The notes under the pieces were generated by a model. The model was not told where the DNA came from, did not search any database, and saw nothing but the letters and a program-made list of their open reading frames with translations. Shown one piece after another: positions 25,276 to 42,664 of a stretch of 45,780 nt of DNA. How positions within the stretch are numbered: position 1 is the stretch's first letter; each line of letters begins with the position of its first letter. Position numbers and translations under genes: made by a program. The stretch covers positions 1-45,780 of the forward strand of contig JAHFRU010000011.1 of assembly GCA_023266115.1 (NCBI GenBank), in the 5' to 3' direction. Origin of the DNA: Gammaproteobacteria bacterium. Its GTDB lineage: Bacteria; Pseudomonadota; Gammaproteobacteria; VBWC01.

Positions 25276-26865
25276 GTGACTCCCGAAACCTCCCAACACA
25301 TCCATGCGCACCGGATTCTGATCCTCGATTTCGGTTCGCAGTATTCGCAGTTGATCGCACGGCGCGTGCGCGAGGCCGGTGTGTATTGCGAACTGCATCC
25401 GTATGACATGGCCGATGATGCGATCCGCGCTTTTCAGCCCAAGGGCATCATTCTGTCGGGCGGGCCAGAGTCGGTGACACCGGAGTCCACTGTGCGCGCA
25501 CCGGATGCCGTGTTCACGCTCGGCGTGCCGGTCCTCGGCATCTGTTACGGCATGCAGACGATGGCCGCCCAACTGGGCGGCAAAGTCGCCGCTGCCGATC
25601 ATCGTGAATTCGGTTATGCGCAGGTGCGTGCGCGCGGCCACACCACTTTGCTGCGCGACATTGAAGATCACACGACGCCGGAAGGCTACGGCATGCTGGA
25701 TGTCTGGATGAGTCACGGCGATCATGTCACCGAACTGCCGCCGGGCTTCAAGCTGATGGCGAGCACTGCCAACGCGCCGCTGGCAGGCATGGCGGACGAG
25801 ACGCGTAAATTTTTCGGTCTGCAATTTCACCCCGAAGTCACGCATACCAAGCAGGGCGGCCGTATCCTGAAGCGCTTCGTACTGGATGTCTGCGGCTGCG
25901 AGGTGCTGTGGACGTCGGAAAACATTATCGACGCGAGTATCGAGGACATCCGTCGCCAGGTTGGCAATGATGACGTGCTGCTCGGGCTGTCGGGCGGTGT
26001 CGATTCCTCCGTGGTTGCGGCGCTGCTGCACAAGGCGATCGGCGATCGGTTGACCTGCGTGTTCGTCGATAACGGTCTGCTGCGCCTGGATGAGGGCGAT
26101 CAGGTCATGACGACCTTCGCGCAGCACATGGGCATACGCGTGATCCGCGTCAATGCGCAGGACAGGTTTCTCGGGCGGCTTGCCGGCATCACGGATCCTG
26201 AGGAGAAGCGCAAGATCATCGGCGGTCTGTTCATCGAGGTATTCGAGGAAGAGGCCGCCAAACTGAAGAACGCGAAGTGGTTGGCGCAGGGTACGATCTA
26301 TCCGGACGTGATCGAATCGGCCGGCGCCAAATCCGGCAAGGCGCACGTCATCAAGTCGCATCACAACGTCGGCGGCCTGCCAGCGGCGATGCGTATGAAA
26401 CTGGTCGAGCCGCTGCGCGAGCTGTTCAAGGACGAAGTACGCCGGCTCGGCATCGAGCTCGGCCTGCCGGGCGACATGGTCTACCGGCATCCATTCCCGG
26501 GACCGGGGCTGGGCGTGCGTATCATCGGCGAAGTGAAGCGCGAATACGCCGATCTGCTGCGCCGTGCCGATGCGATCTTTATCGAGGAACTGCGCAACGC
26601 CGGGTTGTACGACAAGGTCAGTCAGGCGTTCGTCGTGTTCCTGCCGGTGAAATCCGTCGGTGTGATGGGCGATGGACGGCGGCATGATTATGTCGTCGCG
26701 TTGCGTGCGGTCGAGACCGTGGATTTTATGACCGCACACTGGGCGCACCTGCCCTACGAATTTCTCGGTCGCGTCTCCAATCGTATTATCAACGAGATCC
26801 CCGGGATTTCGCGTGTCACCTACGACATCTCCGGCAAGCCGCCCGCGACCATTGAGTGGGAGTAG
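25276..26865 (+). CDS. guaA: GMP synthase (glutamine-hydrolysing)
   Basis: Amidates XMP to GMP with ATP and glutamine. It has an N-terminal class I glutamine amidotransferase domain ([20 protein letters not shown]; catalytic Cys in [16 protein letters not shown]). An ATP pyrophosphatase domain follows with the P-loop [14 protein letters not shown], and the C-terminal dimerisation domain ends PPATIEWE. Length is 529 residues. Initiation is at GTG 25276 with no clear Shine-Dalgarno sequence. The 3' end contains the 12-bp att core GAGTGGGAGTAG, and the gene's coding end is intact despite the island inserted there. Confidence 0.97.
26854..26865 (+). other. attL core of the guaA island
   Basis: GAGTGGGAGTAG encodes the last three residues (EWE reading TIEWE-stop) of GuaA and its stop codon. 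The identical 12 bases occur at 42135-42146. Confidence 0.8.
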
Positions 26866-26899
26866 GGGTTATTTAAGTGCTTGTTCATTAATCAGTTAA

Positions 26900-26938
26900 A
26901 TATGCTCGTTGAGCATATGAATCACGTGATCAACGAGC
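26900..26938. promoter_or_regulatory. Nested palindromes beside attL
   Basis: Three overlapping perfect inverted repeats: ATATGCTC-GTT-GAGCATAT (26900-26918); GCTCGTTGA (26904-26912) with TCAACGAGC (26930-26938); and the palindrome ATCACGTGAT (26921-26930). They start 35 bp inside the island edge. They could be recombinase or directionality-factor sites left after integrase loss, operators, or a terminator-like fold for guaA mRNA. Confidence 0.45.
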
Positions 26939-26979
26939 TGGCGAACCTTGAATACCAACCTTGCTTTGGCTGAGCCTGA

Positions 26980-27275
26980 TCAGGTAGTTCTCATTTCCGA
27001 GTCATAACGTCTTTGTGATCCGCCAGTGGAAGGCGTTGCCCACCCACGCAGCGTTATGCTGACCTCCAGCCCCAGGGTGCGCAGCGCCTTCAGGACCTTG
27101 TCGACCTCGGCCGTCTCCGTGCCCGTTCGAACGCCGACAAAAAGCGTGTGCTCAGGTTGCCGAGCCCGGAGACCGTCTCCAGCGTCAGGCACCGTTGTTT
27201 GCGGTGTGTGCGCGTCAGGCGGCCGAGTTCTTCGACGGTCTGGACCGTTCCGTAAGGGATATCATCCTGCGCCAT
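26980..27275 (-). pseudogene. HipB-like Xre-family antitoxin, frameshifted
   Basis: On the minus strand ATG at 27275 begins MAQDDIPYGTVQTVEELGRL and continues as an Xre helix-turn-helix (TRTHRKQRCLTLETVSGLGN, LSTRFLSAFERA). The family's usual ERG-ETAEIGKVLKALRTLGLE continuation is found only in another frame (GTETAEVDKVLKALRTLGLE), so one base has been lost near 27130. The protein would end in nonsense residues. No HipA kinase toxin is present. It is the relic of a toxin-antitoxin module at the island's left edge. Confidence 0.75.
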
Positions 27276-27295
27276 GGCTGCGTCTTCAAAATAGA

Positions 27296-27307
27296 TACCG
27301 TACGGTA
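27296..27307. promoter_or_regulatory. Palindromic operator-like site upstream of the hipB-like gene
   Basis: TACCGTACGGTA is a perfect 12-bp palindrome 21 bp upstream of the antitoxin ATG. A second partial site, TACCGTAGGT, lies 50 bp further at 27346-27355. HipB-type antitoxins repress their own promoters through paired palindromes, so this is a plausible autoregulatory operator left behind. The remaining sequence to 27523 shows no gene I can support. Confidence 0.4.
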
Positions 27308-27523
27308 AAAAATAGCTCCTTGATCAGCAGATAGTAATGAAAACATACCGTAGGTGATAAATTCGCCGCGATGATTTTGGTGGCCCTCGCATCCCAGTTG
27401 AGGTGCAGAACAATGCAACAGCGATTGTCGCGGGTGGTGAGTATCCATATGGACTTCAGATTTCCATAGCGGCAAGCTCTGAAGGCTAGCGACGATATTC
27501 TCTTCGGAGTAGACTTCCGAGCT

Positions 27524-28876
27524 ATGGATCTGATCGACCTGCTAAAGCGCCCCGAAGGCAAGACGCTGGAATTCAAGCGCGATCTCTCGTCCCCGGAGGG
27601 TACATTGCGCGCCATCGTGGCGTTCGCCAATACGGCGGGTGGCGTGCTGCTCCTCGGCGTGGAGGACACCACGCGGCATGTGCGCGGTGTGGCGAAGCCA
27701 CTGGCCATGGAAGAACGTCTGGCGAACCTGATCAGCGATAGCATTCTTCCGCGGCTGATGCCGGATATCGAGATATTGCCATGGCGCCGCACCCATGTAC
27801 TGGCGGTGCAGGTGTATCCAAGCCCTGGCCGACCCCACTACCTCAGGCGTGCCGGTCTGGATGGCGGCGTCTATGTGCGCGTCGGTTCCACCAATCGCCG
27901 CGCCGACCGCGAATTGATCGACGAGCTGCGACGATTTGCGCGCGGTGAGCCATACGATGAGCAGGCGATGCCCGAGTGCGACTCTGAAGCGCTCGACTTC
28001 CGAGCTGCTTCCGAGTCGTTCGCACCCATCCGCAAGCTCAATCGCGCTGACCTGGAGACGCTGCGCTTGATGACGAGGCACCAGGGGCGCAAGGTGCCCA
28101 CGGTCGGCGGCATGCTGCTTTTCGGCAAGGAACGCGAACGCCATTTTCCGGATGCATGGATTCAGGCCGGCCGTTTTCGCGGCACAGATAAGACCCATAT
28201 TACCGACACCCTGAAAATCAAAAGTCTTCCCCTGCGCGCCGTGGAAGAGACGGTTGCCTTTGTCCAGAAGCATGCCTTGCACGGCATGGAAATCGGCGCT
28301 GTGCATCGCAAGGAACGCTGGAATCTCCCGCCGGTGGCGGTGCGCGAGGCGATCGTCAATGCCGTGGTGCACACCGATTACTCTCAACTTGGAGCCCCCA
28401 TCCGGGTTTCCATTTTCGACGACCGACTGGAAGTAGAAAACCCCGGCCTGTTGCCTTTTGGCCTGACGGTGGATGATCTGCGCTACGGTGTGTCCAAACT
28501 GCGCAATCGGGTCATCGGTCGCGTGTTCCATGAGATTGGATTGATCGAGCAGTGGGGGAGCGGCATCCAACGCATGATGGCGGCTTGCCGCGATGCGGGT
28601 CTGGCGCCGCCCGTGCTGGAAGAAATCGGCACGCGTTTCCGTGTCACTATCCACACGACCAGCACCGGTGCCTCCAGCGTCGATAAAACCGACCAGGCCA
28701 TTCTGGATGCGTTGGCCGCTGGAAATGGTCTATCGACCCAAGAGATTGCCACCGTGATTGGCTTGACCGCGCGCGCTACCCGTAGCCGTCTGCTCAAGCT
28801 GGTTGAGCACGGTCTGGTGAGAGAAATTGGAACGAGTCGGCAGGATCCGAAGCGGCGGTATTTCAGGACGGGATAG
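27524..28876 (+). CDS. AlbA_2 (Schlafen-type) domain protein with GHKL-like ATP-binding and winged-helix domains
   Basis: The N-terminal AlbA_2 domain (about residues 5-130) starts LLKRPEGKTLEFKRDL and has AFANTAGGVLLLGVEDTTR and YVRVGSTNRRAD. A middle region (about 160-370) matches the HATPase_c_4 group often labelled RecG-like regulator: NLPPVAVREAIVNAVVHTDY, FDDRLEVENPGLLPFGLTVD, EQWGSGIQRM. The last 60 residues form a winged helix (LSTQEIATVIGLTARATRSR). Members are usually called transcriptional regulators or predicted nucleic-acid-binding proteins and are frequent in defence islands. A role next to hsdM is inference. Length is 450 residues. Confidence 0.85.
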   Translation: MDLIDLLKRPEGKTLEFKRDLSSPEGTLRAIVAFANTAGGVLLLGVEDTTRHVRGVAKPLAMEERLANLISDSILPRLMPDIEILPWRRTHVLAVQVYPSPGRPHYLRRAGLDGGVYVRVGSTNRRADRELIDELRRFARGEPYDEQAMPECDSEALDFRAASESFAPIRKLNRADLETLRLMTRHQGRKVPTVGGMLLFGKERERHFPDAWIQAGRFRGTDKTHITDTLKIKSLPLRAVEETVAFVQKHALHGMEIGAVHRKERWNLPPVAVREAIVNAVVHTDYSQLGAPIRVSIFDDRLEVENPGLLPFGLTVDDLRYGVSKLRNRVIGRVFHEIGLIEQWGSGIQRMMAACRDAGLAPPVLEEIGTRFRVTIHTTSTGASSVDKTDQAILDALAAGNGLSTQEIATVIGLTARATRSRLLKLVEHGLVREIGTSRQDPKRRYFRTG

Positions 28877-28884
28877 GGGGAACG

Positions 28885-29079
28885 ATGTTGATGCTGAGTG
28901 ATTTTCCGATATACACCGTCATCATTGGCGGAATCCTGGTGTTCTTCGTTCTCCTGTTCGTCATTCGTTTCCTTATTCCGGCCATCTACCAGAACTGGAA
29001 GCTCGGTCATTACACGAAAAAAGTAGAGGGGCCACTAACCCAAAGGCCTTTTGGTACAGTCTTAGCAGTAACTTTGTAG
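28885..29079 (+). CDS. Hypothetical 64-residue single-span membrane protein
   Basis: ATG at 28885 follows GGGGGAA, 8 bp after the AlbA_2 gene, with 9 bp to hsdM. The product has one strong hydrophobic span (YTVIIGGILVFFVLLFVIRF) and a polar tail. The tail after KLGHYTKK looks unlike the first half and ends abruptly, so a frameshift or truncation is possible. I do not recognise a family. The spacing suggests it belongs to the same transcript as hsdM. Confidence 0.45.
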   Translation: MLMLSDFPIYTVIIGGILVFFVLLFVIRFLIPAIYQNWKLGHYTKKVEGPLTQRPFGTVLAVTL

Positions 29080-29088
29080 GATTCATCA

Positions 29089-31752
29089 GTGGCAAAGCAA
29101 AAACAGTCCGCAAAACAGTCAAAACAGCGTGGTGAATTAGCCGCAGCAGCGATCCAACCGGCACGCACCGCCACGCGTCCAAAAACGAAGCTCACTTTAT
29201 CGAGCCTCGAAACCCTACTGTTGCGCGCCTGCGATGACCTGCGCGGCAACATGGATGCCAGCGAGTACAAGGAATACATCTTCGGCATGTTGTTCCTCAA
29301 GCGCGCGAGCGATCTGTTCGATCAGCGCCGCGAGGAGTTGGAGAAGGAGTTCAAAGCCAAGGGCATGACGCCGGCGGCAATGCGCAAGCTACTCGATGAT
29401 CCAGATCAGTATTCGGGCAAGTACTTCTACGTCCCGGAAGTCGCGCATTGGTCCAAGGTAAAGCATCTCAAGGTAAATGTTGGCACTGGCCTGAACAAAG
29501 CATTGGAGGCAATCGAAGACGCCAGCATCGACGCGCTGCAGGACGTACTCAAGGGCATCAACTTCAACAAAAAGATCGGACAGCGCACGCTGGACGACGA
29601 CACGCTGTCTGATTTCATCCAGAACTTCGAAAAGATTCCCCTACGCGATAAGGACTTCGAGTTCCCGGATCTGCTTGGAGCGGCCTACGAATGGTTGATC
29701 AAATACTTCGCCGATTCCGCCGGCAAAAAGGCGGGCGAGTTCTACACCCCGGCTGAGGTCGTGCGCGTCTGCGTCGAGATCGTCGATCCGCAGCCCAACA
29801 TGACCGTGTATGACCCCACGGTCGGCTCCGGCGGCATGTTGATCCAGTCCCGCGATTACCTGCGCGAGTGCGGACACGACCCGCGCCACCTGTCTCTGTA
29901 CGGCCAGGAAAAGATGGGCACCACCTAGTCCATCTGCAAAATGAACATGCTGCTGCACGGCATCGCCCATGCCGACATCCGCCAGGAAGACACCATCAAG
30001 AACCCGGCGCACATGGACGAGGGCAACGAGCTGCGCCGCTATGACCGGGTGCTCGCCAATCCCCCGTTCAGCCAGAATTACAGCAAGAAAGACCTCAAAT
30101 TCCCCGGCCGCTTCCCGGTAATGATGCCCGAAAAGGGCAAGAAGGCCGATCTCATGTTCGTCCAGCACATGCTGTCGGTGCTGAAGAGCAACGGCAAGCT
30201 CGCCACCATCATGCCGCACGGCGTGCTGTTCCGCGGCGGCGAGGAGCGCGAGGCGCGCAAATACTTCATCGACAAAGGCTACCTGGAAGCGGTCATCGGC
30301 CTGCCCAGCAATCTCTTCTATGGCACCGGTATCCCCGCCTGCATCCTGGTGATGAACAAGGCCGGTGCCAGGGATCGCAAGCATGTGCTGTTCATCAACG
30401 CCGACCGCGAATACCGCGAAGGCAAGGCGCAGAACTTCCTGCGCCCGGAAGACATCGACAAGATCGTCCACGCCTACCGCCAAGGCGCGGATATCCCCGC
30501 TTATGCGCGGCGCGTGCCGGTGGAAGAGATCGCCGCCGAAGACTACAACTGCAACATCCGCCGCTATGTGGATAACGCCCCGCCGCCGGAGCCGCACGAC
30601 GTGCGCGCCCATCTGCATGGCGGCGTTCCAATGGTTGAAATCGAAACTATGGGGCATTGTTGGAGCAACTACGCGAAGCTGAAAGAAAGCTGCTTCGTCC
30701 CGCGTGGAAATGTAGGTTGGGTTAGCCCGCAGGGCGTAACCCAACAGGTTCGAGAGGAAACGTTGGGTTACTCTGCGCTAACCCAACCTACGGATTTTTC
30801 GTATGCAGATTTTGCCGACACGCTGAAACACAAACGCACCATCGCCGAAAACGTCGCCAACCACCCCGGCGTAATCGAGAGGCACGGCGCCTTCCTTACC
30901 CAACTGCAAGCCTGGTGGCAGAAAAGCCTGCCGCTGGTGGAAGCCCTTGCCCCGGACACCCACAACAAAAGCGGCCACGCCGGCAACGTCTACGCACTGC
31001 GCCGCAGCCTGCTCGCCAGCATCGCCGAGACCTTCAAGGGTCAGAACCTGCTCAGCCCCTACCAGGTGCGCGGCGCCTTCGCCAACTACATCAACCAGCT
31101 CAAGGCCGACCTCAAATCCATCGCGGCCAGCGGCTGGGGTCCGGAACTGATCCCGGATCAGGAGATCCTCGCCAGCCAGTTCCCGGAAGTGCTGGAAGAG
31201 CTGGAGCAATCCCGCGCCCGCCTCGCGGAACTGCAAGCCCTGTTTGCCGCGGCGGATGAAGAAGACTTCGAAGACACCGACGAAACCGGCGTGCTACCGA
31301 GCGACGAGGTGAAAAAGCTCAAGGCCGAACTCAAGGAGCTCAACACCCGCGCCAAACTCGCCAAGAAGGAAGGCGAAAAGAGCGAATGGACGGCGTACCT
31401 GGCCGAAGTCGAAGCAATCGAGAAACGCCTCGCCGCCCACAAGGCGCTGGAGCAGGAAGCCAAGACACTCAAGGCCGGCATCCGCACCACCGAGAAAAAA
31501 CAGGACGAATTGGTGGAAGCCGCCCGTGCCAAGATCAGCCGCGACGAAGCGCGCCAGGTCATCGTCGAACGCCTTGGTCGTTTGTTAATGGAAAGCTACC
31601 GCGCCTATTTGCGTGCCGATCAACGCGCCTGCGTCGCCGCCATTGAAAACCTCTGGAACAAGTACGCAGTCACGGCCAAGGAGATTGAAGCAGAACGCGA
31701 TGCCGCCAGCACCCAATTGCGGGAATTCCTGGAGGCGTTGGGATATGAGTGA
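29089..31752 (+). pseudogene. hsdM: Type I restriction-modification DNA methyltransferase subunit, interrupted by an amber codon
   Basis: Adenine-N6 methyltransferase subunit of a type I system. GTG at 29089 (AGGA 7 nt upstream) opens an HsdM N-terminal helical domain ([20 protein letters not shown]) and SAM motif [17 protein letters not shown] at 29926 replaces the tryptophan expected in [15 protein letters not shown]. The same frame continues through the catalytic VLANPPFSQNYSKKD, GVLFRGGEEREARKYFID, and a long coiled coil to TGA at 31750. Unless suppressed, two pieces of 279 and 603 residues (restart ATG 29941) result, splitting motif I from NPPF. An 80-bp palindromic element (30712-30791) adds an in-frame insert. 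It overlaps hsdS by 8 nt. Confidence 0.85.
30712..30791. mobile_element. 80-bp palindromic MITE/REP-like element inside hsdM
   Basis: Perfect 15-bp terminal inverted repeats: GTAGGTTGGGTTAGC at 30712-30726 and GCTAACCCAACCTAC at 30777-30791. Each half is also a hairpin: GTTGGGTTA 30716-30724 with TAACCCAAC 30737-30745, and GTTGGGTTA 30762-30770 with TAACCCAAC 30779-30787. Elements of this kind (GTAGGTTGGGTTA) are abundant non-coding repeats in beta- and gammaproteobacteria. Here it is read through in frame as VGWVSPQGVTQQ... and so on. No target duplication is obvious. Confidence 0.85.
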
Positions 31753-32998
31753 GTGGCTCGAAAAGCCTCTCGGCCAACTTGCCAAATTCCAAAAGGGCCG
31801 GAAGGTTGAGACTTCAGAGTACGAACAAGATGGCTATGATGGCTACCTTGGTGCGTCAGCGCTCGAAGGCGAAGTTGAAGGCTACGCGTCGACGAAATTG
31901 GCAGTTCGGGCCAATCCAAGCGATGTTCTTATGCTTTGGGACGGTGAGCGTAGCGGGTTGGTGGGACACAATCTTTCGGGTGTTGTTTCTTCAACGGTGT
32001 CGCGTATCACCCCTAGCAACGAAATTACCAGCTCATACCTTTACTACCACCTATTGTCACGATTTGAGTGGATACAGGGTAGGCGAACTGGAACTGGAGT
32101 CCCACATGTACCAAAAGACCTCTCGCGGATTCTGAAGGTCTATTACCCGAGGAAGCTGTCCGAGCAGAATGCAATTGTTGCCGTTCTAGCTTCCATCGAT
32201 GCCGCCATCAAGAGGACCGAAACCCTCATCGCCAAATACCAGCAAATCAAAGCGGGCCTGATGCACGACCTGTTCACCCGCGGTGTCACCGCCGACGGCA
32301 AACTGCGCCCGCCCCGCGAACAAGCGCCGGAGCTTTACCACGAAACACCGATTGGTTGGATGCCAAAGGAATGGGGTTGTAAATCGGTAGAGCAATTGTT
32401 GGCGCCTGTCGGCAACAATCTGCGAAGCGGCCCATTTGGAAGTGCGCTGCTGAAATCAGAACTCGTAGAAGAAGGTATTCCGTTTCTTGGCATCGATAAC
32501 ATCCATACCGAGCATTTTGAGGCCACATTTACACGACGCGTTTCTCGACAGAAATATTTAGAGTTGAATCGCTATTCCGTTAGGCCAAGAGATGTAGTGA
32601 TAACTATCATGGGTACAGTTGGACGCTGTTGCGTGTTGCCGGCCGACATTGGCGAAGCGCTGTCATCAAAACATTTATGGACAATGACGTTTGATAAAAC
32701 ACAAGTAATATTTGAGCTGGTTTGCTGGCAATTGAATTACGCCCCGTGGGTATTGTCATGGTTTAGGCGCGAGTCACAGGGAGCCGTTATGGACGCTATT
32801 CAATCGTCCACATTGCGCTCATTGATGTTGCCAGTTCCTTCGATTTCGGAACAGCAGGAGATTTTCAAGAAGTTTTCTGCGTGCCATACAATGGTCGAGT
32901 CTGAACAGGGCTCTCTAGCTAAATTAGTGCAAGAGAAGTTGGGGCTTATGCACGACCTCCTCACAGGTCGTGTTCGGGTGAAGGTCAAAAAAATCTGA
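31745..32998 (+). CDS. hsdS: Type I restriction-modification specificity subunit
   Basis: Determines the DNA target of the HsdMS and HsdRMS complexes. ATG at 31745 (MSEWLEKPLGQLAKFQKGRK) overlaps the end of hsdM by 8 nt, so translation is coupled. The 417 residues hold two target-recognition domains (about 1-150 and 215-375). Each is followed by a conserved helical spacer: LSEQNAIVAVLASIDAAIKR...GLMHDLFTRGV and ISEQQEIFKKFSAC...LGLMHDLLTGRV. The DNA of both TRDs is more AT-rich than hsdM or hsdR, as expected for exchangeable specificity modules. It can only work if HsdM is made. Confidence 0.92.
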   Translation: MSEWLEKPLGQLAKFQKGRKVETSEYEQDGYDGYLGASALEGEVEGYASTKLAVRANPSDVLMLWDGERSGLVGHNLSGVVSSTVSRITPSNEITSSYLYYHLLSRFEWIQGRRTGTGVPHVPKDLSRILKVYYPRKLSEQNAIVAVLASIDAAIKRTETLIAKYQQIKAGLMHDLFTRGVTADGKLRPPREQAPELYHETPIGWMPKEWGCKSVEQLLAPVGNNLRSGPFGSALLKSELVEEGIPFLGIDNIHTEHFEATFTRRVSRQKYLELNRYSVRPRDVVITIMGTVGRCCVLPADIGEALSSKHLWTMTFDKTQVIFELVCWQLNYAPWVLSWFRRESQGAVMDAIQSSTLRSLMLPVPSISEQQEIFKKFSACHTMVESEQGSLAKLVQEKLGLMHDLLTGRVRVKVKKI

Positions 32999-33056
32999 AG
33001 TCCATTCGGAATCGATATGATCCACTTTATAACAACAAGACAATGACGAGCAAGCT

Positions 33057-35078
33057 ATGACTAAAGTTCATGTAACCGCGAAACGAGATTTTCTCGAAAC
33101 ATTGACCGTCGCCAGACCATTGGCGGCGTTAGCGGAGCTTGTTTGGAATGGATTTGATACGGATACCAATCAAGTTCAAATCTTTCTCGAATTAAATGAC
33201 ATGGATGGAATACAGGCGATTCGTGTCCGTGATCACGGTTATGGAATCGATTACTCAAAGGTAGAAAATTTGTTCGGAAGCCTCGGCGATTCGTGGAAAA
33301 AAACGCGCGATCGTCAAAATGGGCGGGCGCTCCATGGTAAGAATGGCAAGGGTAGGTTCAAGGCGTTCGCGCTTGGGGAGCGCGTGGAATGGAACACTAC
33401 CTACCGACTCAATGGAAAAACGTATTCCTACAAAATTATGGGAAGTGCACAAAGTCTCGATGATTTTGACACGACCGATCCCGTCGAAGTAAGCGGTGCC
33501 CTGGTCGGAACCGAGGTGATTGTCTACAATCTTCAACACGACTTTCGCTCTCTGCAAGAGGATTCGACGCCGCTTGAACTGGCGAAAATGTTCGCGGCCT
33601 ATCTAACTGAATATCCGGATCTACGCCTCGAATACAACGGAATTGCCGTTGATCCCAAGAGCGTGCAAAGTCACCGTGGTGAGTATCACTTGGGGGATGT
33701 GGAGCTTGGCGACGGGAGTAAAGCCGCTGTAGCAGTGTCCATTATCGAGTGGAGTATTCCAGCCGATCGCGTTCTTCACCTGTGTGATGCAGGCGGAATT
33801 GCTCTGCATGAACTCCAAGTTGGCCCACAAATCCGCGCACCCGGTTTTCATTTCACCGGCTATATCAAGTCTGATCACTTCCGGGAACTGGACAAGCTGA
33901 ATCAACTCAGTCTTGCAGAATTGCATCCGGACGTGCAAACCATAGTCAAGTTAGCGAAGAACAAGATCAAAGAGCACTTCCGACGTCGCCTAGTCGAGGA
34001 TCAAAGCAAGATCATCGAACGTTGGAAGGAAGAACAAATTTATCCCTACGATGACAAGCTGAATCTTGATCCTGTTGAAACAGTCGAGCGACAGGTGTTT
34101 GATATCTTGGCCGTCAACGTCCAGAGCTACTTGCCGTCATTCGACGACGCCGATGTCAAATCCAAGAAGTTTACTTTCCGGCTTCTCGCGCAAGCGATTC
34201 GAGAAAACCCGGAGTCGGTGCAAAAAATTATTGGTGAAGTTCTCGGACTGAAAAAAGATGAACAGGATGAACTTGCCGAATTGCTCTATAAGACGCCGCT
34301 CTCTTCGATTATTAGCTCGGCAAAGATCGTCGCAAACCGTCTCGATTTTCTGAATGGGTTGGAGAATTTGCTTTTCGATAAGGAAAGCAAAAAGAAGCTA
34401 CTCGAACGAGATCAGTTGCATAAAATATTGGAAAACGAGGCGTGGCTATTCGACGAAGAATTTTCTCTTGCTGGTAGTGAAAGGCGGCTGGAAGAGGTGT
34501 TGAATATCCATCTTGATAAACTCGGAGCGCGTGAGGATGATCCCCATCCTGTTGAGATGGGCGAGGGTAAGGCTGGACGTGTCGATCTTATGCTGCACAA
34601 GGTCGTTCAGCCGCGCGTGGGCGAATACGATTACTTGATTATCGAATTAAAACGTCCGTCCAAGAAAATTGACGATGAGGTTCTTACTCAAATCAAGAAA
34701 TATGCTGCTGCCGTCGCCAAAGACGAACGGTTCCGGGATATTAAGACACGTTGGACGTTCGTGGCGATATCGAATGATCTTGATGATTTTGCAAAGAGTG
34801 AGGCGAACCAGAGAAATCGCCCGAGGGGGATGGTTTCAGATACCGCCGAACTCAACATTACGGTATGGGTAAAGTCGTGGGCAGATGTGATCAACGATGC
34901 TCGTGCTCGCTTGCACTTCGTAAATAGGCAACTCGCATATGAGGCAGATCGTGATAGCGCGAAAGCGTACTTGAAGAAGACTCACGCCAAGTTTATCCCG
35001 GACACCGCTCAGACGCGTGATGGCGATGATGAAGTTAAAGCTGAAGTCGACGGCGAGTCCAAGGGCACCTCTGTATGA
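33057..35078 (+). CDS. GHKL ATPase fused to a Shedu-like PD-(D/E)XK nuclease (putative defence protein)
   Basis: The 673-residue N-terminal region is a Bergerat-fold ATPase: N-box ELVWNGFD (E27, N31), Mg/ATP motif DHGYGID (D59), and lid HGKNGKGRF (93-101). This is like MORC, Hsp90 and MutL ATPases. The middle (about 200-440) is predicted helical with no call. The C-terminal 200 residues resemble the DUF4263/Shedu nuclease group: NEAWLFDEEFSLAGSERRLE, then D510 in GRVDLML, and E530-L-K532 in DYLIIELKRPSKK, a complete PD-(D/E)XK site. It is placed between hsdS and hsdR, is AT-rich, and overlaps the next gene as ATGA (35075-35078). I infer an anti-phage effector whose nuclease is gated by ATP. 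Confidence 0.75.
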   Translation: MTKVHVTAKRDFLETLTVARPLAALAELVWNGFDTDTNQVQIFLELNDMDGIQAIRVRDHGYGIDYSKVENLFGSLGDSWKKTRDRQNGRALHGKNGKGRFKAFALGERVEWNTTYRLNGKTYSYKIMGSAQSLDDFDTTDPVEVSGALVGTEVIVYNLQHDFRSLQEDSTPLELAKMFAAYLTEYPDLRLEYNGIAVDPKSVQSHRGEYHLGDVELGDGSKAAVAVSIIEWSIPADRVLHLCDAGGIALHELQVGPQIRAPGFHFTGYIKSDHFRELDKLNQLSLAELHPDVQTIVKLAKNKIKEHFRRRLVEDQSKIIERWKEEQIYPYDDKLNLDPVETVERQVFDILAVNVQSYLPSFDDADVKSKKFTFRLLAQAIRENPESVQKIIGEVLGLKKDEQDELAELLYKTPLSSIISSAKIVANRLDFLNGLENLLFDKESKKKLLERDQLHKILENEAWLFDEEFSLAGSERRLEEVLNIHLDKLGAREDDPHPVEMGEGKAGRVDLMLHKVVQPRVGEYDYLIIELKRPSKKIDDEVLTQIKKYAAAVAKDERFRDIKTRWTFVAISNDLDDFAKSEANQRNRPRGMVSDTAELNITVWVKSWADVINDARARLHFVNRQLAYEADRDSAKAYLKKTHAKFIPDTAQTRDGDDEVKAEVDGESKGTSV

Positions 35079-36787
35079 CGCCCACCGAACTACAGAAGAA
35101 GCTCGGCGAACTGCTTGCCCTGCCCGCCGAGACGGAGTGGGTGGAGTTCAAGCGCAACAACGACAAGCCGGACGAGATCGGTGAATACCTGTCGGCTATC
35201 GCCAACGGAGCGGCCCTGCATGGCAAGCAGACGGGTTACATCGTCTGGGGCATCAAGGATGGCGCGCACGAGGTGATTGGCACCTCGTTTGTGCCCAAGC
35301 GCGCGAAGGTCGGCAACGAGGCGCTGGAAAACTGGCTGCTCCGCCTGCTGAATCCCCGGATCGATTTTACGATTCACGAATTCAAATACGGCGAATTTCC
35401 GGTGGTGCTGTTTGAGGTGCAGGCCGCCAACTCGACGCCGGTGCGTTTCAGCGGAGAAGCGTTCATCCGCGTCGGCAGCTACAAAAAGAAGCTCAAGGAT
35501 TTCCCCGAGAAGGAACGCAAGCTGTGGCAGATGCTTTCCAGCACGCACGAGGACTGGTCGGCACAAATTGTTGAAGCCGCCAGCCTGGATGACCTTGACT
35601 CCACGGCGCTGCAATTTGCGCGTGCCCAATATAGGATCAAACATCCGCAACGTGCCGATGAAATGGATTCCTGGGATGACGTTACATTTTTGAACAAGGC
35701 GAAGGTGTGCATTGGCGGTAAGGTCACCCATGCCGCGCTTGTTCTGCTGGGCAAGGAGGAATCCGCGCATCTATTGGCGCCTGCGGCCGCCCAACTGACA
35801 TGGGTTCTGCGCAACGAGGCCAGAGTGGATCAGGACTATGAGCATTTTGGCTTGCCGTTAATTTTGTCCAGTGATCGCATTCTGAAAAAGGTGCGCAACT
35901 TAACGATTCGGCATTTGCCCAGCAGGACGCTGTTTCCGCACGAGGTCTCGCAATATGACCCATGGGTGATGCGCGAAACGCTACACAACTGCATTGCGCA
36001 TCAGGATTACACGTTGCGTGGCCGTACCAGCTTGGTGGAAACGCCGGATTCGCTGCTGTTCACGAACATGGGAACATTCATCCCCGGCACTGTGGAAGAC
36101 ATGATTCGCAGTGACGCGCCGCCAGCGGTGTACCGAAACAAGTTTCTGGCGGATGGCATGGTGAACCTGAATATGATTGACACCATCGGCAGTGGCATCA
36201 AAAAAATGTTCATGGCGCAGCGTCTGCGCAATTTCCCGATGCCGGATTTTGACTTGAGTAAAACGAATGAAGTAAGCGTCAGGCTCACGGGACAAATTCT
36301 TGATGAGAAATATACCCAGATGCTCATGGCGCGAGGCGAACTTGATTTGATGGATGTCATCGCTCTGGATAAAGTGCAAAAGCGTCGCGCTATCAGCGAC
36401 AATGAATTCAAAAGGCTCAAGGTGCAACATCTGATTGAAGGGAGGCGGCCGAATCTCTTCGTGTCGGCGGAGGTTGCATTGGCCACAGGTGCCAAGGCGG
36501 CATACATCAAGCATCGTGGCTTGGATAAGGCGCATTACAAAGCCTTGGTTATTTCTTATTTTGAACAATTCGGACAATCCAAACGAGCCGATATTGCTGC
36601 GTTTCTTCTGGAAAAAATCTCGGATGCACTTTCGACAGAACAAAAAGAAAATCGTATCAAGAATCTTCTTCAGGAAATGCGACGTGAGGGCACCCTGAAG
36701 AGCGAAGGCCAGGGTCCTGGTGCTCTATGGAAATTGGCTAAAACTGCGACTGACTCGAAGAATTTAGACCATTCAGATCAGGGATGA
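35075..36787 (+). CDS. AlbA_2 (Schlafen-type) domain protein coupled to the GHKL-nuclease
   Basis: The 570-residue protein begins with an AlbA_2 domain (about 10-140: ETEWVEFKRNNDKPDEIGEY, NGAALHGKQTGYIVWGIKDG, FIRVGSYKKKLKDFPEKERK). A HATPase_c_4/RecG-like middle follows (MRETLHNCIAHQDYTLRGRT, ETPDSLLFTNMGTFIPGTVE, LNMIDTIGSGIKKMFMAQRL). The C-terminus has winged-helix-like segments. Its ATG lies inside the TGA of the GHKL-nuclease gene (4-nt overlap), so the two are made together. It may be a nucleic-acid sensor or regulator for the partner nuclease, which is inference. It differs clearly from the other AlbA_2 protein at 27524. Its higher GC than the partner suggests separate origins. Confidence 0.8.
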   Translation: MTPTELQKKLGELLALPAETEWVEFKRNNDKPDEIGEYLSAIANGAALHGKQTGYIVWGIKDGAHEVIGTSFVPKRAKVGNEALENWLLRLLNPRIDFTIHEFKYGEFPVVLFEVQAANSTPVRFSGEAFIRVGSYKKKLKDFPEKERKLWQMLSSTHEDWSAQIVEAASLDDLDSTALQFARAQYRIKHPQRADEMDSWDDVTFLNKAKVCIGGKVTHAALVLLGKEESAHLLAPAAAQLTWVLRNEARVDQDYEHFGLPLILSSDRILKKVRNLTIRHLPSRTLFPHEVSQYDPWVMRETLHNCIAHQDYTLRGRTSLVETPDSLLFTNMGTFIPGTVEDMIRSDAPPAVYRNKFLADGMVNLNMIDTIGSGIKKMFMAQRLRNFPMPDFDLSKTNEVSVRLTGQILDEKYTQMLMARGELDLMDVIALDKVQKRRAISDNEFKRLKVQHLIEGRRPNLFVSAEVALATGAKAAYIKHRGLDKAHYKALVISYFEQFGQSKRADIAAFLLEKISDALSTEQKENRIKNLLQEMRREGTLKSEGQGPGALWKLAKTATDSKNLDHSDQG

Positions 36788-36892
36788 GAGACCGTGACCA
36801 TGTCAAGATATATAGAATTTCAACGAGTTAAGTGACCGTCAAATCGTCTAAATCGTTGACGCCTTGCTACGCTTTAGCTATTTAACTAGCCC

Positions 36893-39800
36893 ATGTCCGA
36901 ATATCTGCACGTCGAAAAACCCTTCCTAACCCAGCTCTCAGAACTGGGCTGGACGGTGATCGACCAGGGTGTGGGTGTGATACCGAGCGACCCGGCCAAG
37001 AGCTTGCGCACTTCGTTTCGCGAGTGGTTGTTGCTTGAGATATTCAGTACCGCCGTGCGCGCCATCAACACCACCGACGACGGCAAGGCGTGGCTCACGG
37101 ATCGGCAACTGGACGAGTTGCTCGACCAGATTTTGCGCCAGCCGAATCGTACGCTGCTGGAGGCCAGCGAGGCTATCCAGTCGCTGCTCTTTAAAACCCA
37201 GGTCGACACCAACGAAATCACAGGTGAGCAGGATCCGGTGGTGAAGCTGATCGACTTAGCCAATCCCGCCAATAACCAATTTCACGCCATCAACCAGTTT
37301 CGCATCGATACGCCGGGCTGCGTGAAGCAGTTCATCATCCCGGACATCGTCCTGTTCGTGAACGGTATCCCGCTGGCGGTGGTGGAGTGCAAGCTTGGCG
37401 GACCCACCTGTGCCAACCCGATGCACGAGGCTTTCGTGCAGTTGCAGCGTTACCGGAATGCCCGCCAGGCGACACAGGATATAGGCCTGAAAGAAGGCGA
37501 GCCACGCCTATTTCACACCAATCAGTTGTTGATCCGCACCAGTGGCGCGGAAGCGGACTATGGCACCCTGACCTCTGGCGAGGAACACTTCTATGCCTGG
37601 AAGACGCTGTGGCCAGAAAGTGATGAGAATCTCGCACAGAAGAATCCGCAGCAGCGGCTGATTCAAGGCATGTTGAGCAAAGACAATCTGCTGCGCATCC
37701 TGCGCACCTGCTCGGTGTTCATGGATACCGATGCGGGCAAGCGCATCAAGGTGGTGGCCCGTTATCAGCAATTCCGCGCTGCGGGCAAGATTATCGAGCG
37801 ACTGCGCAGTGGTGCAACACCCATGGAGCGCAGCGGTGTGGTATGGCACACCCAAGGCTCGGGCAAGTCGCTCACCATGGTGTTTGTTGCGCGCATGTTG
37901 CGCGCCTCACGCGACCTTAACGATTTCAAAATTCTGCTGGTCAATGATCGCGTTGATCTGGAAGAACAGCTCGGCCAGACCGCCGCGCTCATCGGCGGCA
38001 AGGTGAACGTGATCGAAAACACGCAGGCGCTGCGCCGCCATCTGGCGACGGATAACTCCGATATCAATATGGTGATGGTGCACAAATTTCAGGAACGCCA
38101 GGAAACGCTGACGCCGCACGTGGCCGAGGCGCTAGGCACGTATCTGGCCATACCATCCGCCAATACCTTCGGGGTGGTGAATCCCTCCGAGCGCATCCTC
38201 CTGATTATCGACGAGGCGCACCGTAGCCAGGGTTCAGACTTCGGCGACAATCTGTTCGAGGCTTTCCCCAATGCCACTCGTATTGCCTTCACAGGCACGC
38301 CGCTGATTACCGAACGACACGGCGAGAAGAAAACCGTAAAGCGCTTCGGCGAATACATCGATACCTATAAGCTGATGGATTCCGTGCATGACGGTGCGAC
38401 GCTGCAAATTCTGTACGAGGGGAAGACTGCCGACACCGCGCTGAATGAGAAACACCAGTTCGATACGAAGTTCGAAGACCTGTTTCGAGATCGCAGCGAA
38501 GCAGATTTGCTGGCGATCAAGAAGAAGTACGGCGCCACTGGCGACATCCTGGAGGCTGAGCAACGCATTGCGGCCATCGCACGGGATATGGTTGGCCACT
38601 ATATCGATAACATCTTGCCCAACGGCTTCAAGGCACAAGTGGTGTGCCACTCCAAGCTCGCTGCGGTGCGCTACCAGCGGGCCATTGAGGACGCCTTGGC
38701 CGAACGGCTGGAACGGGAAAAGCTCAAGGCGACACCAGACCAGGACCTGATCGACCAAATCACCTTTCTCAAGGCCGTGGTAGTGATTTCCTCTGATGGC
38801 ACCAACGAGGCGGCGTATGTCACCCAGGCGCGCAAACAGGCCAAGGCCTGGAATGCCGTCGAAAACTTCTGCAAACCCTTTGACCGCCAAGACCCGGACA
38901 AAGAGCTGACTGGCATCGCATTCCTTATTGTCTGCGACATGCTGATCACCGGCTTTGACGCGCCGGTGGAGCAGGTGATGTATATCGACAAGAAGATTCG
39001 TGAACACACCTTGTTGCAGGCCATCGCCCGTGTGAACCGGGTAGCCAAGGGCAAGAAGCGCGGCTATGTGGTGGACTATATCGGACTGGCCAACCACCTT
39101 ACCGAAGCGTTGACCATCTACGCCGCGACCGATGAGCAGGAAGAGCTGCGGGACGGGCTCAAGAACATTACCTCGGAATTGCCTGTCTTGGAGGAGCGCT
39201 ACCAACGCCTGGTTCAGTTCTTCAAGGCAGCCGGGGTGAGGGGCGTTGAAGATTTCGTGCAGGGCCGGCTCGCGGGCATCGAGGCCGATGCAGCGGTGGT
39301 GCATGCCGCAGTGACCGCATTAAAAGATGAAAAGCTGCGTGCGGATTTCGAGGTGTACTTGAAGAAATTCCTCATGAGCATGGACATCATATTGCCGCAC
39401 GAGGGCGCGCAACCCTATCGGGTACCCGCCAAGCGCTTCGGTTATATCCTGAGCGTGACCAAAGAGCGCTATAAGGATGAGAGCCTGGACCTGGGCGACG
39501 CAGGCGACAAGGTCAAACGCTTGATCAACGAGCACTTGGTGAGCCTGGGTATTAATCCAAAGGTGCCGCCGGTGGAACTGCTGGCGGAGGATTTTCTCGA
39601 CCAGCTCAACCGCCACGCGGGCGGCAACGACGAGGCCAAGGCCAGCGAGATGGAGCACGCCATCCGCAAGCATTGCACCGTGAAGTTCGATGAAGATCCC
39701 CAGTTCTATAAGACCCTGTCGGAAAAGCTGGAACACTTGATCGACAAGTATCAGGACCAGTGGGATTTGCTGGCAGAGGAGCTTGAGAAACTGCGGGCCG

Positions 39801-40141
39801 AGGCCGCCGCTGGCCGAACCGAGAACATTGAGGGGCTGGATAAAGAAGCGACTACCTTCTATGCCCATGTGGCCGAATTAGCCTTCGGCAAAGAGGGGGT
39901 TCCCGCTGGCCAGGCTACCAAGATGAAGGCGTTGATGAAGAACATTGTCGAGTTGCTGCAAGGGACGATCGGGATCATCGACTTCTGGAACAATCCGGCC
40001 GAACAAAAGCGACTGCGCGGTGAGCTGAACAAGGTGCTCTTGATGGCGGATATTCCCGAGTTCACCGCGAATTTTGAACGGCTGGCAGTGGAAATCATGA
40101 AGTTGGCGAAGAACCGCCATGACGAATTGTTGAAAGGCTAA
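36893..40141 (+). CDS. hsdR: Type I restriction-modification endonuclease/translocase subunit
   Basis: ATP-driven DNA translocase and nuclease. The 1082-residue protein has the N-terminal PD-(D/E)XK nuclease (PDIVLFVNGIPLAVVECK: D151, E165, K167). A SF2 helicase motor follows, with Walker A HTQGSGKSLTM (about 320-328), the DEAH box IIDEAHRSQG (440-443) and motif VI-like LLQAIARVNRVAKGKKRGY. A C-terminal HsdM-contact region completes it. All catalytic residues are present, so the subunit looks intact although its partner hsdM is not. The ATG at 36893 lies 105 bp after the AlbA_2 gene with a weak ribosome site; a separate promoter may lie in that AT-rich gap. The stop is 4 bp from the next gene. 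Confidence 0.95.
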   Translation: MSEYLHVEKPFLTQLSELGWTVIDQGVGVIPSDPAKSLRTSFREWLLLEIFSTAVRAINTTDDGKAWLTDRQLDELLDQILRQPNRTLLEASEAIQSLLFKTQVDTNEITGEQDPVVKLIDLANPANNQFHAINQFRIDTPGCVKQFIIPDIVLFVNGIPLAVVECKLGGPTCANPMHEAFVQLQRYRNARQATQDIGLKEGEPRLFHTNQLLIRTSGAEADYGTLTSGEEHFYAWKTLWPESDENLAQKNPQQRLIQGMLSKDNLLRILRTCSVFMDTDAGKRIKVVARYQQFRAAGKIIERLRSGATPMERSGVVWHTQGSGKSLTMVFVARMLRASRDLNDFKILLVNDRVDLEEQLGQTAALIGGKVNVIENTQALRRHLATDNSDINMVMVHKFQERQETLTPHVAEALGTYLAIPSANTFGVVNPSERILLIIDEAHRSQGSDFGDNLFEAFPNATRIAFTGTPLITERHGEKKTVKRFGEYIDTYKLMDSVHDGATLQILYEGKTADTALNEKHQFDTKFEDLFRDRSEADLLAIKKKYGATGDILEAEQRIAAIARDMVGHYIDNILPNGFKAQVVCHSKLAAVRYQRAIEDALAERLEREKLKATPDQDLIDQITFLKAVVVISSDGTNEAAYVTQARKQAKAWNAVENFCKPFDRQDPDKELTGIAFLIVCDMLITGFDAPVEQVMYIDKKIREHTLLQAIARVNRVAKGKKRGYVVDYIGLANHLTEALTIYAATDEQEELRDGLKNITSELPVLEERYQRLVQFFKAAGVRGVEDFVQGRLAGIEADAAVVHAAVTALKDEKLRADFEVYLKKFLMSMDIILPHEGAQPYRVPAKRFGYILSVTKERYKDESLDLGDAGDKVKRLINEHLVSLGINPKVPPVELLAEDFLDQLNRHAGGNDEAKASEMEHAIRKHCTVKFDEDPQFYKTLSEKLEHLIDKYQDQWDLLAEELEKLRAEAAAGRTENIEGLDKEATTFYAHVAELAFGKEGVPAGQATKMKALMKNIVELLQGTIGIIDFWNNPAEQKRLRGELNKVLLMADIPEFTANFERLAVEIMKLAKNRHDELLKG

Positions 40142-40145
40142 GACC

Positions 40146-40853
40146 ATGTCAGCACGACGTGTAAGAGACATTGAATACCAATTGCTGCGTAGCGGCGAAC
40201 GCAGGACCGCCGACGTGGTAATCGAGCGCGACGGCAATATTTCTGTCCGTGTACCAGAGCATCTCACCGAGGAACAGGCCGATGCAGTCGTAGAGAGTAA
40301 GCGCCTATGGATCTACCGCAATCTGGCTGAGTGGCGTGATCTGAATGCAACCAAAGTGGTGCGCGAGTGGGTTAATGGCGAGGCGTTTCTATATCTTGGT
40401 TCTTCGTACCGTCTTCTATTTGTACAGGAACAGGATGAGCCGCTAAAACTGAAGGATGGGCGGTTCTGTTTATTGCGGCAGATCGTCGAGACGGGCGGTG
40501 AATCAGCGGCTAAGCGTGAGTTCGAAAGATTCTATATTGGGAAGGGGCTGGAGCGGCTAAGAAAGCGAGTAGAGTATTTCGCACCGAGGGTGGGCGTTGC
40601 CCTTACCTTTATCGATGTGAAAGACATTGGGTACCGTTGGGCTACTTGTGCTGTGGATGGCCGCTTGAGTTTTCACTGGAAGTGCATGATGGCTACGCCG
40701 AAAGTGATCGACTACATCGTGGTTCACGAGCTTTGCCACTTCCATTATCGCGACCATACCGAAGCGTTCTGGAACGAGGTGGACAAGGTGATGCCGGACT
40801 ATCGCGAGCGCAATGAATGGCTGCGCCGCAATGGTGCCGGTATGGATCTGTAG
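40146..40853 (+). CDS. YgjP/M48-like zinc metalloprotease domain protein
   Basis: The 235-residue protein of the DUF45 (YgjP-like) group has a zinc HExxH motif in VVHELCHFHYRDHTEAFWNE (H194, E195, H198) with a downstream acidic helix. The N-terminal half is a beta domain (TADVVIERDGNISVRVPEHL). Genes of this family are regularly found directly after hsdR in type I loci, as here (4-bp gap), but their role in restriction is not established. The region RWATCAVDGRLSFHWKCM before the motif is also typical. Confidence 0.88.
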   Translation: MSARRVRDIEYQLLRSGERRTADVVIERDGNISVRVPEHLTEEQADAVVESKRLWIYRNLAEWRDLNATKVVREWVNGEAFLYLGSSYRLLFVQEQDEPLKLKDGRFCLLRQIVETGGESAAKREFERFYIGKGLERLRKRVEYFAPRVGVALTFIDVKDIGYRWATCAVDGRLSFHWKCMMATPKVIDYIVVHELCHFHYRDHTEAFWNEVDKVMPDYRERNEWLRRNGAGMDL

Positions 40854-40858
40854 GTTTG

Positions 40859-42013
40859 GTGATTAAGTCGCGGGGACACCCCAACACGAACAGCCCCTTC
40901 AAGAATCATCTTGGATTGCTGCATTTTCTTCGTAAGCTGTGTATCGCGCCCGAACCTGAAATGAAATCCTCCACGGGCGAGCCCCTGTCCAGTTACCGGA
41001 AGAAAAATCCAAAGATTGACTGGCTTATCAACACACTTCGACAGATCGAGACGAAGGGAGAGAAGGCCATCGTGTTCTGTGAGTTTCGCGATACTCAGAC
41101 CCTGCTCGCGTACTACATCGAACAGGAATTCCGGTTCCGCCCTGACATCATCAATGGCGATACGGAGGCTGCCGCATCGGCGGCCGATAGCCGGCAGAAG
41201 CGCATCAAGCGCTTCCAGGCGCAGGATGGTTTTGGCGTCATCATCTTGTCGCCCATCGCCGTAGGCTTCGGTGTGAACATACAAGCGGCAAACCACGTTA
41301 TTCATTTCTCGCGCACGTGGAACCCGGCGAAGGAAGATCAAGCCACGGACCGGGCGTATCGCATCGGCCAGACCAAGCCAGTGTACGTCTACTACCCCGT
41401 GGTTTGCGCGGACGACTTCACGACCTTTGACGTGAAGCTGGATCGCCTGCTGGAGCGCAAACGGTCACTGTCTGACGATATGCTCAACGGCTGCGGTGAT
41501 CTGAACCCCTCGGATTTCGCCGACATAGTGCAGATCGACAGCCGGGTATTCGACGAGCGGATCACACTGGATGATGCCATAAGGCTGGATCCCCTGGAAT
41601 TCGAGGCGTTGATCGCGGCGCTTTGGAAGAAACAGGGGTTTCGTACCGTGGAATTGAAAGGGGGCGCGGGCGATGGTGGCATCGATGTGATAGCCAAAAC
41701 AGTCAACGTCGGCACGCTGATTCAATGCAAGAGTTCACGAACTGAAGGTACGAATTTGGGCTGGGAGGCGATCAAGGACGTCGTGACGGGGGAAGCCAAG
41801 TACAAGTTCGAGCATCCGGGCGTCGTATTCACCAAGGTCGCCGTAACGAACCAATTCTTCAATGACAACGCTCGTTTTCATGCCGAACTGAATAAGGTGA
41901 GGTTGGTGGACCAGACCACTTTGGCAAAGCTTCTCGACACGCATTGTGTCGTCAGGGGCGATATTGAGACACTGTTGTCATCGCGGTTGCATGTTCGGAT
42001 TGACCAGAATTAG
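40859..42013 (+). CDS. 5'-truncated SNF2-family helicase C-terminal domain fused to Mrr-type nuclease
   Basis: From about 40890 the frame reads as the second RecA-like domain of a SNF2 helicase (EKAIVFCEFRDTQTLLAYYI, ILSPIAVGFGVNIQAANHVI, motif VI QATDRAYRIGQTKPVYVYY). A Mrr-like restriction endonuclease domain follows (LDPLEFEALIAALWKKQGFR; GDGGIDVIAKT...LIQCKSS, with D and QxK). The entire N-terminal ATP-binding half with Walker A and DEAH is missing; the join lies just after the metalloprotease stop. A GTG at 40859 could start translation, and the frame is open back to 40817 inside the upstream gene. Without motor motifs it cannot hydrolyse ATP, but the nuclease domain appears complete. 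Confidence 0.75.
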   Translation: MIKSRGHPNTNSPFKNHLGLLHFLRKLCIAPEPEMKSSTGEPLSSYRKKNPKIDWLINTLRQIETKGEKAIVFCEFRDTQTLLAYYIEQEFRFRPDIINGDTEAAASAADSRQKRIKRFQAQDGFGVIILSPIAVGFGVNIQAANHVIHFSRTWNPAKEDQATDRAYRIGQTKPVYVYYPVVCADDFTTFDVKLDRLLERKRSLSDDMLNGCGDLNPSDFADIVQIDSRVFDERITLDDAIRLDPLEFEALIAALWKKQGFRTVELKGGAGDGGIDVIAKTVNVGTLIQCKSSRTEGTNLGWEAIKDVVTGEAKYKFEHPGVVFTKVAVTNQFFNDNARFHAELNKVRLVDQTTLAKLLDTHCVVRGDIETLLSSRLHVRIDQN

Positions 42014-42094
42014 GTCGCGACAAGTTATTAGATATGCGTAAGGATTTTTTGATTATGGTATTTTTCAGGGTATCGACGCTATGACTGAATGTAA

Positions 42095-42664
<570 letters not shown>

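Follow-up and report, generated by a model that had tools for sequence, protein, structure and literature searches.

A GHKL-type nuclease gene and a Schlafen-type gene as putative anti-phage cargo between hsdS and hsdR on a guaA-site genomic island

The window analysed here, a stretch of 45,780 nucleotides from Gammaproteobacteria bacterium (GCA_023266115.1, contig JAHFRU010000011.1), carries two complete open reading frames, ORF1 and ORF2, lodged between hsdS and hsdR of a type I restriction-modification (RM) locus. ORF1 (33057-35078, + strand) encodes a paraMORC3-type protein of 673 amino acids (aa), with a predicted GHKL ATPase domain (E27, N31, D59, lid 93-100), an S5/transducer region extending to approximately residue 318, a helical linker and a PD-(D/E)XK nuclease domain (D510, E530, K532). 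ORF2 (35075-36787, + strand; 570 aa) combines a Schlafen AlbA_2 domain (E19, E24, D62) and a HATPase_c_4 GHKL domain (E301, N305) with a C-terminal winged helix (483-557) seen in its structure model. The two ORFs share a 4-bp ATGA overlap, with 58 bp separating ORF1 from hsdS (31745-32998, + strand) and 105 bp separating ORF2 from hsdR (36893-40141, + strand), these two host genes forming the left and right walls of a cargo slot. An earlier note, made from the letters of the window, had singled out the pair as a coupled and undescribed candidate defence module, and its coordinates, gene lengths, overlap and flanking genes were all reproduced.

Residues 23-123 of ORF1 match the Pfam family HATPase_c_3 (E=1.4e-12), and weak matches to PDDEXK_9 and HSDR_N_2, under the Pfam cut-offs, occur at residues 504-555. 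An alignment of seventeen sequences was assembled, comprising ORF1 and sixteen others which are 35-72 % identical to it and derive from genomes, GTDB contigs, plasmids and one phage. The ATP-site residues E27, N31, D59, G61, G63, H93, G94, G97, G99 and R100 and the nuclease residues E450, D510, E530, K532, Q545 and Y549 are invariant among these (17/17), where we take E450 for the first E of the E-D-ExK motif. Both active sites, as pointed out in the earlier note, are therefore not chance motif matches. At E<=1, HATPase_c_3 and HSDR_N_2 are likewise each matched by all seventeen proteins. The AlphaFold model of ORF1, built from ten sequences (mean predicted local distance difference test score, pLDDT, 73.6), superposes over residues 7-318 on the N-terminal plus middle regions of MORC2/3 and Hsp90-type proteins (listed Z 15.5-17.6; root-mean-square deviation, rmsd, mostly 6-7), including TRAP1 (Z 17.6, rmsd 6.7, 259 residues aligned) and MORC3 (Z 16.1, rmsd 6.3, 277 aligned), and over residues 7-205 on SMCHD1. 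At the level of the modelled fold, residues 7-318 are a GHKL domain with an S5/transducer domain. In the C-terminal part of the model, strands 512-520 and 523-531, the latter bearing E530, are followed by a helix at 540-555, with D510 just ahead of the strand pair and K532 just behind it. Motif and modelled secondary structure together point to a restriction endonuclease (RE) fold, and all three parts that mark a paraMORC3 protein (GHKL, S5 and RE fold) can thus be recognised in sequence and model, in agreement with the initial assignment of ORF1 as a GHKL-type PD-(D/E)XK nuclease.

The label Shedu-like, which had also been applied to this nuclease, calls for a correction. None of the seventeen family members match the Pfam SduA_C model (DUF4263, PF14082) at E<=1, and this profile has no match anywhere in the genome to which the window belongs. 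Two REase_II models of PADLOC match twelve and nine of the seventeen proteins, respectively, the SduA model matches one (E=0.0014), which is not ORF1, and no model in PADLOC-DB 2.0 matches ORF1 itself at E<=1. In profile-to-profile alignment (hhalign), a profile built from five SduA_C domains is matched by that of ORF1 residues 440-640 (E=9.2e-5, probability 59), D510, E530 and K532 being in register, and by that of the whole ORF1 protein at E=5.6e-4 (probability 30). Control alignments of the nuclease profile gave E=0.41 for Mrr (three sequences) and E=0.18 for the profile of ORF2, the non-nuclease control. A distant relationship of this nuclease to the core of Shedu is probable, yet it fails Shedu's own model, and it is only between profiles that the resemblance can be seen. 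Searching the PDB by sequence with ORF1 returned only MORC3/4, MutL and PMS1, at E 0.03-0.9, and the nuclease profile had no PDB match at E<=10. In both fold comparisons made with the ORF1 model, the fifty structures listed include no Shedu or other nuclease, but these places are filled by the ATPase part and hence carry no weight against a nuclease. A scan of IMG/VR with ORF1 gave eight stretches that fit a pattern, none of them from a relative.

ORF2 matches SLFN_AlbA_2 (PF04326; E=2.2e-20) and HATPase_c_4 (PF13749; E=1.7e-10), bearing out its description as a Schlafen-type protein, with the qualification that its GHKL site, in which E301 and N305 are kept, is not fully canonical (N331). Its structure model (mean pLDDT 82.3) aligns over residues 3-474 with DIP2311 (3lmm; Foldseek E=2e-20; VIA Z 22.7, rmsd 9.9, 411 aligned), and its N-terminus with the SAMD9 tRNase (Z 9.2, rmsd 3.6, 138 aligned) and the SLFN5 domain (Z 8.4). 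The winged helix modelled at 483-557 reaches Z 8-10 over approximately 60-76 residues, a moderate score given how widespread this fold is. Combined into one profile, ORF2 and ten other proteins retrieve Schlafen structures by sequence, namely SLFN11 (E=6.5e-8), SLFN14, 5yd0 and SLFN5, and E19 and E24 are conserved in all eleven proteins. E19, E24 and D62 fall on E205, E210 and D248 of SLFN13, with the same spacings of 5 and 38 residues as counted on the 5yd0 alignment with an assumed 13-residue chain offset. Mutation of these SLFN13 residues lowers cleavage (PMC5862951). With the ORF2 sequence itself, the sole PADLOC-DB matches were to portions of two Aga_SIR2 models and PDC-S50 (E between 4e-6 and 0.002), NCBIfam gave no match, and the PDB gave none at E<=0.1. 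The island that holds the locus encodes a second AlbA_2/HATPase_c_4 protein upstream of hsdM (27524-28876; 450 aa), which is 21 % identical to ORF2 and keeps the E-E-D positions, and a third AlbA_2 match lies on another contig.

The interval between hsdS and hsdR appears to be a site of variable gene content. HsdR was matched at E<=1e-100 in thirteen other genomes among 369 of the class, four of them at 70-73 % identity. In these thirteen loci hsdM lies upstream of hsdR in eleven and a YgjP gene downstream in twelve (all but L130), while hsdS is undetected in L124, L131 and L132 (L124 and L132 end nearby); L123 has a broken copy of it, and those of L122 and L128 are short. The slot is empty in four loci (L120, L127, L128 and L129), and the remaining nine carry other genes ahead of hsdR. 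These comprise two DarT genes with a DarG gene (L121), a PIN-domain gene (L122), a weak transposase-like ORF (L123), a Fic gene alone (L124) or with a second ORF without family (L125), an AAA_21/AAA_15 ATPase (L126), a DUF4917 gene with a reverse transcriptase (RT) and a ThsB-TIR gene (L130, 7235-11616), Mrr, RhuM-fragment, Gp49 and SecB-like genes (L131), and an HTH-M78 gene with a PIN match below cut-off (L132). No match to ORF1 or ORF2 at E<=1e-4 occurs in the thirteen hsdR stretches. The earlier proposal that genes lodged in type I loci serve as separate defence functions is supported. Published work reports this hsdS-hsdR position to hold either DarTG2 or an AAA-like ATPase together with a putative RNA-binding protein, and suggests that it is a recombination hotspot for defence genes (PMC12255303); ORF1 and ORF2 look like two more cargo genes of this slot. 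In L121, a degenerate copy of approximately the first 127 codons of hsdR, with two stops (9758-10135), lies between hsdS and the DarT-DarT-DarG genes, with the full hsdR past the cargo; this fragment is possibly a scar of cargo entry.

The same comparison bears on whether ORF1 and/or ORF2 could be accessory subunits of the type I enzyme, modulating HsdR or regulating the hsd operon, which we regard as very unlikely. Such a role would suit the shared strand and short gaps, the lack of a terminator-like site on the + strand from hsdS to hsdR, the winged helix in the ORF2 model and the AlbA_2 genes found ahead of hsdR in L101 (where that gene is interrupted) and L102, although these two loci were found via ORF2 and are thus a biased sample. 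However, since the slot of related loci is either empty or filled by genes other than ORF1 and ORF2, the enzyme seems not to need them, and homologues of both also turn up in places where no hsd gene was detected. Scanning for promoters and terminators yielded fewer sites than shuffled sequences did (4 vs 7.5 and 9 vs 14.2), and no convincing repeats marking the insertion of ORF1 and ORF2 into the slot occur among the direct-repeat families listed (20 of 26).

The RM locus is carried on a genomic island of 15,267 bp (26867-42133) that adjoins the 3' end of guaA. A 12-bp direct repeat, which is the end of guaA, flanks the island on either side (26854-26865 and 42135-42146). In the same-genus genome G398, guaA runs straight into sequence matching the window from 42134 onward, and the island is absent from that site. 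The guanine-cytosine (GC) content of the island is 0.546, compared to 0.596 for the whole window, and guaA is named in the genomic-island literature. No integrase was found among the large ORFs scanned or the end translations of the island, although no dedicated search was made. A YgjP-like metallopeptidase gene (40146-40853, + strand) starts 4 bp past hsdR, and adjoining the island a Calx-beta/RTX-repeat protein of 997 aa is encoded on the - strand (42726-45719). The hsdM gene (29089-31752, + strand) contains an in-frame TAG at 29926-29928, a feature absent from the earlier note, whereas in the relatives L120, L121 and L123 it forms one uninterrupted ORF of 909-910 aa; the TAG means that the methylase is dead or that the assembly is wrong at this point. 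This codon, a probably truncated SNF2-Mrr gene, whose ORF covers no more than the C-terminal part of ZorD-like proteins, and the lack of a visible integrase on the island would fit a type I system already dead and a cargo that is a passive remnant. Such decay is nevertheless highly improbable, with ORF1, ORF2 and hsdR all long and uninterrupted and with most catalytic residues retained in the two cargo genes.

The GC content at third codon positions (GC3) is unlike among the genes of the locus (hsdM 0.75-0.78, hsdR 0.74, ORF2 0.64, hsdS 0.54 and ORF1 0.52), the values for ORF1, ORF2, hsdM and hsdR being consistent with separate arrivals. Composition, as the sole hint in this direction, suggests that ORF1 arrived later than ORF2.

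Whether the two genes travel together was assessed in several sets of genomes. Among 398 genomes of the phylum, ORF1 matches occur in 28 (nine at E<1e-20, including the genome of the window) and ORF2 matches in 58. Four genomes besides that of the window match both queries, on different contigs each time and with weak or partial ORF1 matches. In the 369 genomes of the class, ORF1 is matched at E<=1e-20 in eight, again including its own, and no further ORF1 locus was found at E<=1e-50 in the 42 genomes in the order of G665. Thirty-one loci with ORF1 homologues were scanned by profile for AlbA_2 and HATPase_c_4, of which twenty-five have an ORF1 match at E<1e-20 and six (L050-L053, L055 and L056) a match that is weaker, partial or lacking at 1e-4; neighbours could be missed in L031-L033, L045 and L056, which end at or near contig edges. 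An AlbA_2 gene adjoins the ORF1 homologue in only one of the loci scanned, L032, which is one of the twenty-five strong ones, and within the DNA examined none is present at L033, L031, L109 and L041, whose ORF1 relatives are 72, 68, 58 and 56 % identical, respectively. The L032 neighbour belongs to another subfamily, matching the protein at 27524-28876 of the window (26 %) and not ORF2 at E<=1e-4, and both it and the adjacent ORF1 homologue are broken. Because AlbA_2 is common, being found in 5/14 control genomes, this single neighbour could be due to chance. Conversely, no ORF1 homologue is present in the stretches examined around the ORF2-type genes of eleven loci, and no accession is shared among the plasmid matches listed (40 of 46 ORF1 records and 25 of 69 ORF2 records). 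ORF1 and ORF2 are not a conserved unit in these samples. The claim that they are coupled is accordingly not upheld, and adjacency of the two genes did not recur, the one neighbour found being of another AlbA_2 subfamily.

The surroundings of the two types of genes are diverse. ORF1 homologues without ORF2 occur in a plasmid transfer region, next to a type II RM pair and next to a type ISP enzyme (4-bp overlap). In Pasteurella phage Pmp14 (L040, 8001-9959) a homologue (41 %) lies amid tail-region genes and is possibly a phage-carried defence gene. One gene run (L110, 181-11077) comprises AIPR, an SMC-like ATPase, mod- and res-like genes of a type III-like system (SMC, mod and res being named by eye) and an ORF1 homologue. 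In L041, a canonical Shedu gene (SduA_C E=1e-27; 7032-8285) and an ORF1 homologue (56 %; 8975-11065) are encoded on opposite strands, approximately 0.7 kb apart, and an HNH gene lies to the other side; in L053 an hsdM-like stretch is found approximately 7 kb off. ORF2-type genes are found in type III loci, between mod and res (L095) or before res (L096, where length and position alone identify mod), in type I loci (L099, L101 and L102), beside the Wadjet gene JetD and one of SMC type, close to a NACHT-domain gene (L097, 2446-14713), beside YhcG (L098), an SNF2 helicase (L103) or an integrase (L104), near an AAA_21 ATPase gene (L100), and among glyoxalase and amidase genes (L094).

Taken together, ORF1 and ORF2 are best read, with a probability of roughly 70 %, as anti-phage genes that act independently of each other, both carried as cargo between hsdS and hsdR of a type I locus on a guaA-site island, and we prefer independence because the genes assort separately. 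ORF1 would most likely act in the manner of VcSduA of Vibrio cholerae VSP-II, which protects against phages, with growth curves read as direct restriction (Adams et al. 2025, PMC12137116). ATP binding would dimerise the GHKL heads, the S5/middle region would close as a clamp on DNA, and the paired C-terminal PD-(D/E)XK domains, licensed by the clamp, would cut invading DNA. This clamp mechanism is proposed by analogy with GHKL relatives and with the VcSduA mutants E27A and K557A, which abolish defence (PMC12137116). ORF2 would most likely serve as a back-up effector, a Schlafen RNase kept in check by the GHKL domain until a signal acting through that domain, for example phage inhibition of DNA-cutting systems, sets it free, whereupon the AlbA_2 domain would cleave tRNA or other RNA; the winged helix may have a further role in regulating the operon. 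The slot which in relatives holds DarTG, PIN, Fic, TIR/RT and other genes is here occupied by genes for a Schlafen-type protein and a VcSduA-like GHKL nuclease, which supports the idea of a general docking site for anti-phage genes, and scanning of the hsdS-hsdR slot would be a cheap route to further genes of this kind.

Several observations weigh against this interpretation. The native hsdS has a GC3 (0.54) almost as low as that of ORF1, and composition alone is therefore no mark of a late arrival of ORF1, while the interruption of hsdM implies that the locus may be decaying. The nuclease region of ORF1 is modelled at moderate confidence (block mean pLDDT of 54-85 for residues 501-610 and 54-60 near D510), and its ATP lid at 53-67. 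In ORF2, N331 sits where the Asp of the DxGxG motif belongs, and the residue at position 62 is Asp in eight and Asn in three of the eleven ORF2-type proteins, hence neither ATP binding nor catalysis is assured. Furthermore, the ATGA overlap of ORF1 and ORF2 hints at translational coupling, which favours a joint function, and an ATGA junction also connects the AlbA_2/HATPase_c_4 gene of L032 to its ORF1 homologue, the closest relative found (81 % identical in the best segment), on a 5.7 kb contig with no hsd gene detected. These junctions would fit a true module of two GHKL proteins, a DNA nuclease and an RNase, in which ORF2 senses or guards ORF1 or is a built-in suicide back-up, and for paraMORC-HEPN fusions found in RM loci an analogy with PrrC/RloC has been put forward (PMC3710099). 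The rarity of an AlbA_2 neighbour at strong ORF1 loci, including its absence beside the four relatives of 56-72 % identity, the eleven ORF2-type loci without ORF1 and the differing GC3 of the two genes make such a module unlikely. Quite unlikely, too, is a looser two-component arrangement, where failure of the GHKL-clamp nuclease, or its capture by a phage inhibitor, would release a coupled Schlafen tRNase and the partner would be swappable between subfamilies, the window and L032 representing two versions. If the pair were coupled after all, it would constitute a DNA-cutting system that brings its own RNA-cutting fallback.

When the separate-cargo reading is set against known systems, both genes and the docking site are of known kinds, and the stack itself, unnamed as far as searched, is probably a chance combination of cargo. 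The pair was said to be undescribed, which does not stand for its members, given that architectures have been published for ORF1 (PMC2292703, PMC12137116) and for ORF2 (PMC12839542). For the exact pair no name was found within PADLOC-DB 2.0, which has no model that matches ORF1, or within the listings and excerpts of the literature searched. Proteins of the paraMORC3 group have been defined by a GHKL domain, an S5 domain and an RE-fold domain with the E-D-ExK motif, and occur in RM neighbourhoods with a standalone subset (Iyer, Abhiman and Aravind 2008, PMC2292703). Compared by description, they are alike to ORF1 in their GHKL, S5 and C-terminal RE fold, their RM or standalone settings and their sporadic distribution, and no difference was found. 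VcSduA, placed in Shedu type I-D (PMC12137116), likewise resembles ORF1 by description, as a single protein with N-terminal GHKL motifs I-IV, a C-terminal PD-(D/E)XK domain and a catalytic-site Glu 27. The two differ in that VcSduA is reported to contain SduA_C (DUF4263), which neither ORF1 nor its sixteen relatives match, and to lie beside GrwAB, whereas ORF1 lies in an hsd locus. The model of the BbrUII/HgiDII family of restriction enzymes (NCBIfam NF050001) scores ORF1 at 57.9 bits against a cut-off of 550, and the best stretch, in which ORF1 residues 23-198 fall on the N-terminal part of that model (E=7e-16), extends over no more than the ATPase. Proteins comprising a Schlafen RNase, a minimal histidine kinase and a winged helix-turn-helix (wHTH) domain are counted as back-up suicidal effectors and have, in at least 1017 taxa, been associated with BREX and related loci (PMC12839542). 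They have the same domain order as ORF2 and are found in or next to defence operons, while ORF2, a predicted RNase, is found in a type I RM locus. DIP2311 (3lmm), which is listed as an uncharacterised protein, is 15-18 % identical to ORF2. The arrangement as a whole has a parallel in the RptR-RMS-DarTG2-M48 island (PMC12255303), where the cargo is DarTG2 or a pair of a putative RNA-binding protein and an AAA-like ATPase in place of ORF1 and ORF2, and which shares with the present locus the order of hsdS, defence cargo and hsdR together with a predicted metallopeptidase gene.

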